Shown one piece after another: positions 43,390 through 45,063 of a stretch of 64,000 bases of DNA (within the stretch, counting starts at the first letter, position 1; every line of letters begins with the position of its first letter). The stretch lies in assembly GCF_000427445.1 (NCBI RefSeq), contig NZ_KE386496.1, positions 3,636,004 through 3,700,003 of the forward strand. The letters are read 5' to 3'. Under the pieces are notes generated by a model. That model worked only from the letters and a program-made list of their open reading frames with translations, did no database searches and had not been told where the DNA came from. This DNA comes from Methylocapsa acidiphila B2 (GTDB lineage: Bacteria > Pseudomonadota > Alphaproteobacteria > Rhizobiales > Beijerinckiaceae). A program made the translations under genes and the position numbers.

Positions 43390-43704
43390 GAAATTAGGGC
43401 GCGGCGCGGTTTGCCGTGTGCAATGTGGGAAATTGTCGGACCGCGAAGACCCGCAGCAAGCATGAGCGGTTGCGGCTCATTGAACTCCGGCGAATTTGGT
43501 CTATAACATTCTTGTGAATGACAGCCAGCGCCGACCCTGTAGGCGTGGCGCTGAATGATCAGCGGCTGATTTCACAACATAGGAAGGAAATTCTGAAATC
43601 GTCCGAAGGGCGGCGCGGGGAAAGTTCCGGCCGCCGACTTCGAACCCTTTGATGCGGCAAAAGATTGTTCCTTGCAGAATAACAAGCAAGTGGAGGAAAC
43701 GATC
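43390..43704. other. non-coding region downstream of lepA
   Basis: These 315 bases have no supportable gene. GGAGG just before 43705 is the ribosome binding site for the next gene. I see no clear terminator hairpin after lepA. Confidence 0.4.
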
Positions 43705-44229
43705 ATGTCGAAAGGCGGACGAATTCTATCCTACGCAGCGGCGCTGCTCGCTCCTGCTACAATATTGTTGGTCGCTTGGCCGATGCTCGCCAGAAATCTC
43801 TTCGCGAGAGGCTTTGGCGATGAGTCCTTCATGCCCCACGGGATGTGCTACTTGTGGGTGACGCAGCTCTATATGATGCATGTCGGCTCTGATCTCCTCA
43901 TCGGATTGTCCTATATAGCGATCTCGTCTACGCTCATCTATCTTATCTACCGCGCTCGCGAAGACATGCCCTTCTCGTGGATCTTCGTGGCCTTCGGCGT
44001 CTTCATCCTCGCCTGCGCCGCGACGCATTTCATGGAGGTCTGGACCATCTGGAATGCAACCTATTGGCTCGCCGGCTATATCAAGCTTTTGGCTGCGGCC
44101 GCCTCGGTCGCGACTGCAATCGTCCTTCCCTTCCTTGTGCCGAAAGTGCTGGCGCTAATTAAAACCGTGAAGCGCTCGGAAGATGGAAGCGCCCAGCTGG
44201 GGCATGGCCAGCCTAGTATGGCGGAATAA
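43705..44229 (+). CDS. stand-alone ethylene-receptor-like (ETR1 N-terminal type) membrane domain
   Basis: GGAGGAAACGATC before ATG 43705 (MSKGGRILSYAAALL) gives 174 residues. After an N-terminal helix comes PHGMCYLW, then three helices matching the ethylene-binding domain of ETR1 and cyanobacterial receptors. D63 (GSDLLIGLSY), C104 and H108 (CAATH) correspond to ETR1 D25, C65 and H69, which hold Cu(I) and ethylene. EVWTIWNATYWLAGYIKLLAAAASV continues the conserved third helix. Bacterial relatives are normally fused to a GAF/histidine kinase; here the protein stops after a short tail (VKRSEDG...). No kinase is adjacent. It could be an orphan sensor module or a different small-ligand/copper membrane protein. 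Confidence 0.8.
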   Translation: MSKGGRILSYAAALLAPATILLVAWPMLARNLFARGFGDESFMPHGMCYLWVTQLYMMHVGSDLLIGLSYIAISSTLIYLIYRAREDMPFSWIFVAFGVFILACAATHFMEVWTIWNATYWLAGYIKLLAAAASVATAIVLPFLVPKVLALIKTVKRSEDGSAQLGHGQPSMAE

Positions 44230-44236
44230 ATTGGCG

Positions 44237-44267
44237 GGAGGCCGAGCCGCAAAAGGAGTCGGCCTCC
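44237..44267 (+). terminator. hairpin after the ethylene-domain gene
   Basis: Arms GGAGGCCGA (44237-44245) and TCGGCCTCC (44259-44267) enclose a 13-base loop, 8 bases after the stop. Only a weak T-rich stretch (ACTTTCGGCTTT) follows. Confidence 0.55.
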
Positions 44268-44373
44268 ACTTTCGGCTTTCCCGGACGCCGAGTTTCGACG
44301 CGACTTCAGCGCAAGCTTTTGGAAGCAAGGTCGAGTATCTGCGTTGAAAGCCTCTCCGCATGACTGACCGTGG

Positions 44374-45063
44374 CTATCGCCCGCGCTTTTTCAGCGTATC
44401 GATCAGAAGCTTGGCGGTCGGGCCGGAGGAGGCCGGATTCTGGCCAGTGATCAGCTGGCCGTCGGCGACCGTGTGAACGTCCCAGTTCTTGACCTTGGAA
44501 AAAATGGCGCCGAGGCTTATGAGCTCATCCTCGACAAGGAAGGGCACGATTTTCGTCAATCCGACCGCGTCTTCCTCGCCATTGGTGAAACCGGTCACGG
44601 TCTTGCCGGCGACGAGCGGCTTGCCGTCCGGGGTCTTGACGTGGCGCAGAACTCCGGGAGCGTGGCAAACCAGCGCGAAGGTCTTGCCGGCGGCCAGGAA
44701 GGATTGGATCAGCTTGATCGAGCTCGCGTCTTCGGCGAGATCCCACATCGGCCCATGACCGCCAGGGTAGAAGACGGTGTCATAGTCTTCCTGCTTGACG
44801 CTATCGAGGCGCACGGTTCTGTCGAGCTGGGCTTCGGCGTTGGCGTCCTTCTCGAACCGCCGGGTGATGTCGGTCTGGAAGTTCGGCTCATTGCTTTTGG
44901 GATCGAGCGGCGGGCGGCCGCCCTTGGGAGATGCAAGGGTGATCTCGGCCCCAACATCCTTGAAGACGTAGTAGGGCGCCGCCAATTCCTCCAGCCAGAA
45001 GCCGGTCTTGCGGCCCGTGTCGCCGAGCTGGTCGTGGGAGGTGAGAACCATCAACACTTTCAT
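44374..45063 (-). CDS. DJ-1/PfpI superfamily protein (Hsp31-like)
   Basis: AGGAG seven bases before ATG 45061-45063 selects MKVLMVLTSHDQLG (229 residues). The nucleophile elbow ALVCHAPGVL carries the reactive cysteine with a following histidine, as in Hsp31/YDR533c-type proteins. GGHGPMWDL is the conserved oxyanion strand. Members act as glyoxalase III, deglycase or holding chaperones; which applies cannot be decided from sequence. It is transcribed alone. Confidence 0.85.
   Translation of the reverse strand: MKVLMVLTSHDQLGDTGRKTGFWLEELAAPYYVFKDVGAEITLASPKGGRPPLDPKSNEPNFQTDITRRFEKDANAEAQLDRTVRLDSVKQEDYDTVFYPGGHGPMWDLAEDASSIKLIQSFLAAGKTFALVCHAPGVLRHVKTPDGKPLVAGKTVTGFTNGEEDAVGLTKIVPFLVEDELISLGAIFSKVKNWDVHTVADGQLITGQNPASSGPTAKLLIDTLKKRGR

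Follow-up and report, generated by a model that had tools for sequence, protein, structure and literature searches.

What could a sensor domain of the ethylene-receptor type do in a bacterium when it is not attached to a kinase? The question is raised by a gene on the forward strand of the window, by which we mean the whole stretch of 64,000 nucleotides from Methylocapsa acidiphila B2 that was analysed. An earlier note, made from the letters of this DNA, had described the gene as an orphan sensor domain in a methanotroph-like organism and had suggested that it may sense ethylene through a separate partner, or bind copper or another small alkene: the observation is confirmed by our analysis, whilst the interpretation is partly supported. 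The description of the host held up well, with a match to pmoA of 365.7 bits in the window genome (G000).

The gene, its protein and the copper/ethylene site

The reading frame (43705–44229, + strand) starts with the ATG at 43705, is closed at 44229 and encodes a protein of 174 amino acids, in which Pfam places the sensor domain of ethylene receptors (PF25487, ETR1_N; here termed EBD, for ethylene-binding domain) on residues 55–151 with E = 3.6e-32 (111 bits, compared to a cut-off of 27). This EBD core corresponds to 43867–44157 (+). No output domain reached the Pfam cut-off in this protein, the other listing falling far below its own cut-off, and an NCBIfam scan returned zero matches up to E = 1. 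Taking the ETR1_N match together with the dN/dS ratios given below, the window gene is, as far as can be judged from sequence, a real stand-alone ethylene-receptor-type sensor domain without a kinase, as had been claimed. A likely ribosome binding site (GGAGGA, 43692–43697, +) lies 7 nt 5' of the ATG and a hairpin is found 3' of the stop codon (44237–44267, +; -25.5 kcal/mol for a stretch of 59 nt, fold z = -2.17). Both elements had been reported for the gene; the hairpin, however, lacks a T-run and escaped the terminator scan, which gave one match (44369–44385) against 1.4 expected, and we regard the hairpin as a possible transcription end that would be a non-canonical terminator. The neighbours of the EBD gene in the window are lepA and a DJ-1/PfpI gene, the latter downstream on the opposite strand; a domain scan of these two flanking genes found neither a kinase gene adjoining the EBD gene nor copper genes beside it. 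The G+C content of the EBD gene is 0.563 vs 0.621 for the window, with a third-position G+C of 0.71 vs 0.87 and 0.81 for the two flanking genes, a difference from its neighbours that fits transfer from elsewhere.

The monomer was modelled using AlphaFold (43 alignment rows, mean pLDDT 81, pTM 0.64), which yielded four long helices at residues 3–36, 53–83, 91–116 and 120–166. The last three of these make up the EBD and match the three helices originally described, but an extra N-terminal helix beyond the Pfam domain brings the number to four. This extra helix (residues 3–36; 43711–43812, +) coincides with a hydropathy peak at residues 4–34 and is less confidently modelled than the rest of the protein, with a block pLDDT of about 63–75. 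Basic residues lie near the N-terminus, in the loop behind the second long helix and at the C-terminal end, a distribution that would place both termini inside the cell. A single-sequence query identified no solved structure related by sequence to the 174-aa protein (best E 0.66), and no solved fold matched the AlphaFold model at E ≤ 0.001.

The residues of the putative metal site were compared using an EBD alignment in which 130 matches were reduced to 119 distinct rows. Similarity searches supplied these rows, and one of the searches used the pattern FMPHGMCY; hence the invariance of this stretch and part of the invariance of the C and H residues stem from the selection of the rows. The proposed correspondence of D63, C104 and H108 with the Cu(I) site of ETR1 was borne out by the alignment, where they occupy the D25, C65 and H69 positions: D63 (43891–43893, +) lies in a column with D in 104 of the 119 rows, N in 13 and E in 2, whilst the columns of the Cu(I) ligands C104 (44014–44016, +) and H108 (44026–44028, +) contain C and H, respectively, in 119/119 rows. 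At the ETR1 positions Y32, I35, I62 and K91 the window protein has Y70, I73, I101 and K127, the Y32 position being invariant in 119/119 rows and the K127 position (44083–44085, +) showing K in 100 rows, R in 16, L in 2 and a gap in 1. The P36 position is occupied by S74 (43924–43926, +): here P is present in 100 of the 119 rows, T in 13, S in 4 and M and G in 1 each, with the four serine rows comprising the three orthologues described below and L028, a fused EBD protein; fused EBD proteins with T at this position (Colwellia type) also occur. The window protein thereby keeps six of the seven residues on which ethylene binding by ETR1 depends (Y32 included), with P36 lost, and 19 of the 119 EBD rows are also without P. 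The roles of D25, C65, H69 and K91 in ETR1 are treated in an excerpt of PMC11819568, and an excerpt of PMC6586836 refers to earlier mutagenesis in calling P36 essential for ethylene binding. The exchange of P36 for serine counts against full ethylene affinity and may reduce or change the affinity of the protein for ethylene.

Orthologues, the resident EBD-kinase and split gene pairs

The orphan gene is present in 3 of the 397 sampled genomes of the host family, window genome included: the orthologues show 82% identity in G580 (a Methylocapsa sp., the frame being locus L039) and 78% in G089, which belongs to another genus of the same family. Pairwise dN/dS for the three orthologues amounts to 0.106, 0.122 and 0.152 (NG86), ratios that are rough because dS is near or above 1; judged by them, the orphan EBD gene is under purifying selection, and its preservation is more than chance. 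Identical residues in all three proteins account for 96 of the 119 core positions (residues 37–155), 23 of the N-terminal 36 residues and 6 of 19 in the C-terminal tail. As to whether the ligand residues vary freely in relatives, a point raised in the earlier note, the D, C and H site residues are identical across the three orthologues, all of which have Ser at the P36 position, whereas the D25 position holds N or E in 15 of the 119 alignment rows and two of the 12 paired EBDs described below have lost C65; outside the orthologues, the variation named in the note as a refutation is thus seen in part. Similarity at the DNA level spans about 43696–44229 with the G089 copy, from the ribosome site to the stop, and is confined to the gene with the L039 copy. 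Comparison of the ORFs of L039, which covers only about 370 bases upstream of its orphan copy, and of a 20-kb stretch of G089 with the window ORFs suggested no shared gene order around the orphan. The neighbours in these genomes include a LuxR-type regulator some 900 bases downstream (L039) and a LemA gene (G089), and inspection of the ORF lists by eye revealed no kinase gene near either copy. The search for stand-alone copies that had been proposed for this locus thus returned two orthologues without shared neighbours, together with 12 paired genes from another clade that are described below.

The product of pmoA is a copper enzyme, and pmoA is also found in G580 and G089; all three orphans seen are therefore in pMMO genomes. 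As a separate observation, in a host-family sample of 199 genomes an EBD occurs in 14 of 20 genomes with pmoA vs 25 of 179 without (Fisher p = 2.4e-7, ignoring relatedness); these 14 genomes belong to three genera, and an EBD is missing from 6 of the pmoA genomes. A phage or virus origin of the orphan was considered and rejected, there being no match in phages and no relative in viral contigs, and plasmid copies were likewise rejected: all 18 plasmid records fall below 60% identity and none covers 80% of the query.

The interpretation in the earlier note is weakened, besides the Ser at P36, by a second EBD in the cell: G000 also encodes a fused protein of 397 amino acids with the order EBD, HisKA, HATPase (L114:9801–10994). 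Pfam found no GAF domain between EBD and HisKA in this resident kinase: the expectation that bacterial forms are fused to a GAF and a histidine kinase was accordingly correct here for the kinase, but not for the GAF. The resident EBD-kinase gene precedes two overlapping receiver genes, of which one encodes PAS domains, and this arrangement (L114:9801–12804; G000 C2, about 1993800–1996800) is likely an ethylene-type two-component operon in a methanotroph. Three EBD proteins are present in G089 (L115, L125 and L126), namely the orphan, a kinase-type protein in a frame of 598 amino acids (assigned by eye) and a much diverged protein in a frame of 1218 amino acids, whilst in G580 (77% complete) the orphan alone was recovered in the search with the orphan protein. 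The orphan shares the sensor domain with the resident protein of G000 (42% identity over residues 37–151); unlike the orphan, the resident protein has no N-terminal extension, is fused to a kinase, holds all seven binding residues and belongs to a different EBD clade.

This last point emerges from a tree of 114 of the 119 alignment rows (L084, L094, L061 and L117 were left out and one more was lost to the duplicate/length filter), which has few columns for many rows and a weak deepest fork (60/72). The three orphans form one clade (100/99) that joins two Gemmatimonadota EBDs (97/95), whilst the resident kinase falls into a group of 37 rows (97/78) with nearly all host-family EBDs; the orphans and the diverged G089 protein (L126), which has a long branch, lie outside this group. 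Given this separation from the resident kinase, the orphan does not represent a copy of it that broke recently. A fragment or frameshift of the resident kinase had been considered as a candidate and was ruled out by the tree and dN/dS. Judging from these comparisons, the orphan is a separate EBD lineage from the resident EBD-kinase, consisting of the domain only, under selection and found in three pmoA genomes.

Stand-alone EBD genes were also found in a paired arrangement. At 12 alphaproteobacterial loci (L082, L089, L093, L122 (G712), L123 (G815), L153–L155 and L157–L160) such a gene directly precedes a second gene, and all 12 second genes have the same type of membrane sensor; HisKA is visible in 10/12, and in the two pairs without visible HisKA the frames end at the end of the locus. 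For the three Maricaulis pairs, G712 and G815, the EBD gene is followed by a membrane histidine kinase with HisKA and HATPase in 5/5 cases, and its sensor is called Cache-like because of a single weak match to dCache_1 in G815 (E = 4.1e-6, below cut-off), the other four being without a sensor match. The sensor profile was built from these five pairs, and therefore seven of the 12 pairs are independent tests: these seven loci end about 1.5 kb past the EBD and contain HisKA in five and a PAS domain in a sixth, whilst no domain is visible in the shortest. Across the order of G815 (142 genomes), the 14 EBD matches include 8 short frames, all of which (8/8) directly precede the same sensor type, and the sensor occurs in 0/6 long-frame EBD loci, a weak control given that there is little sequence 3' of those genes. 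The candidate kinase starts nearest the paired EBD range from a 14-base overlap to a 7-base gap. The paired EBD frames are short in all 12 (133–183 aa), and the three that were scanned have no output domain in Pfam. All ten checked residues are kept in 10 of the 12 paired EBDs, whilst C65 is lost in the remaining two and H69 also in one of them: L159 (G1272) has C to G at C65 and E for D25, and L160 (G1244) has D, Y, C and H all changed, both still being located beside the sensor gene. Judging by the split pairs, bacteria seem to employ EBDs as subunits in their own right, and some of these persist without the metal site. The five paired EBDs in the tree form a clade separate from the orphans (93/91 as drawn) and are therefore a precedent for the orphan rather than close relatives.

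Possible function and its alternatives

The orphan resembles ETR1/ERS from plants and SynEtr1 and AzoEtr1 from bacteria in its ETR1_N domain, the D, C and H residues of the Cu(I) site and the Y, I, I and K positions, and is unlike them in having no GAF, PAS, kinase or receiver domain, an extra N-terminal helix and Ser at P36. In being a separate small protein it is like the EBDs of the split pairs (three Maricaulis, G712, G815 and seven others), which differ by the sensor-kinase gene that follows at once and by their separate clade. The reading that we favour, although with a confidence that stays a little short of even, is that the orphan is a free-standing EBD subunit, predicted to bind Cu(I) and possibly ethylene-sensing, which modulates a kinase in trans. 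The protein would be anchored in the inner membrane, its two termini on the inner side, would bind Cu(I) and would serve a histidine kinase as sensor or modulator subunit; its likeliest partner would be the resident EBD-HisKA-HATPase protein, via mixed dimers that alter kinase output. Its likeliest ligand would be ethylene or some other small unsaturated compound that matters to a pMMO organism, although copper itself or a small molecule of a different type could also be the ligand. According to excerpts of the respective reports, EBDs without the kinase bind ethylene as GST fusions in yeast (AzoEtr1 1–130, PMC11819568; ETR1 1–128, PMC2799528), and ETR1 is a dimer whose primary contact is considered to lie in its membrane part (PMC12643061). 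Because an EBD binds alone and ETR1 dimerises by its membrane part, a free EBD with a Cu(I) site could pair with an EBD-kinase to give a mixed dimer, and the orphan does co-exist with other EBDs in G000 and G089. Counting against the favoured reading are the recovery of the orphan alone from G580, a genome that is 77% complete, and the Ser at P36 in all three orthologues.

The proposal of a separate partner in the earlier note gains indirect support from the 12 alphaproteobacterial pairs of EBD and membrane-sensor genes, but no kinase gene was found beside the window gene and the sensor was not found in G000. The related idea of a dedicated kinase partner encoded elsewhere in the genome, like that of the other-clade pairs but unlinked, we consider improbable: the 12 EBD genes that directly precede a membrane-sensor gene (HisKA in 10) speak for it, but the two EBD clades are separate and a profile search for relatives of the paired-kinase sensor found none in G000, G089 or G580. 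A CHASE-type partner (PF03924) was not found in G000 or G089, with one match in G580. We assign a similarly low probability to a sink or decoy role, in which ethylene or copper held in the membrane would tune the sensitivity of the resident EBD-kinase with no partner contact: the lack of an output domain and of a fixed neighbour would suit such a role, as would the other EBDs of G000 and G089, but nothing positive points to it, and a sink for a freely diffusing gas in the inner membrane would require high expression.

Roughly twice as credible as either of these, and still unlikely, is a Cu(I)-binding membrane protein that has given up ethylene sensing and instead binds copper, buffers it or reports on it for a pMMO organism, or has another small molecule as ligand; the loss of ethylene sensing would follow from serine standing in place of a proline that ethylene binding requires. 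This replacement in all three orthologues, at a position essential in ETR1 (PMC6586836, excerpt), and pmoA in all three genomes fit such a protein; however, the Y32, I35, I62, C65, H69, D25 and K91 positions are all kept, fused EBD proteins carry S (L028) or T (Colwellia type) too, and the scanned flanks, lepA and DJ-1/PfpI, are no copper genes. Very little credence can be given to a functionless decaying fragment of an ethylene receptor kinase: its small size, its presence in 3/397 host-family genomes and a codon and G+C make-up that differs from its neighbours might be expected of such a remnant, but dN/dS of 0.11–0.15, a frame and ligand residues intact in three species, the lack of a kinase match in the protein and its place in the tree away from the resident kinase all argue against it.

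The favoured reading of a subunit acting in trans can be extended into a broader proposal, which as a whole we hold to be rather doubtful, if slightly less so than the copper protein: a free-standing subunit for ethylene/copper sensing, having spread from one methanotroph genus to another, would act in trans on ethylene-receptor kinases and tune the response of pMMO bacteria to a gas that both blocks methane oxidation and poisons it. An excerpt of PMC11507031 reports that ethylene inhibits methanotrophs and that toxic epoxyethane arises from co-oxidation by pMMO. If true, this case would count among two or more independent separations of sensor and kinase in bacterial ethylene receptors, and it could tie a plant-type gas signal to bacteria harmed by ethylene. 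Two types of ethylene-receptor protein occur in one methanotroph, and one of the two is a naturally minimal sensor; a natural kinase-free domain of 174 amino acids could also be of use in structural studies of the Cu(I)/ethylene site. Literature searches, in part broad, gave nothing on point for stand-alone or split EBDs among the matches listed; output domains of ethylene-binding proteins are said to range 'from simple to complex' in an excerpt of PMC7700396, and a published mention of kinase-free forms may therefore exist. Within the literature on ethylene receptors with methanotroph or Methylocystis, judged by titles and abstract openings, no publication on ethylene sensing by a methanotroph was found.

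Further kinase-free EBD genes

Kinase-free EBD-type genes were seen in three sets: the 12 paired genes, the 3 orphans and a diverged set of at least three members. The latter, L117 (G093), L141 (G1134) and L124 (G584), are diverged EBD-like proteins seemingly without a kinase, and the paired-kinase sensor profile found no match in the stretches around them; pairing thus does not hold for every EBD without a kinase. Left out of the orphan and pair counts were L084, L094, L061, L037, L099 and L142 (contig or locus end, or an abrupt sequence change), L063 and L069 (sequence continuing past the EBD), L116 (a remnant of 75 amino acids) and G773 (a frame of 101 amino acids with a stop). L121/G640 (195 aa) was also not counted, possibly being a broken fused gene because of the usual linker at its end and a receiver-like gene downstream (by eye). 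In the likewise uncounted L139/G1074 and L140/G980, a diverged EBD is followed by a short tail, which by eye is like part of another kinase type, and then by a stop.
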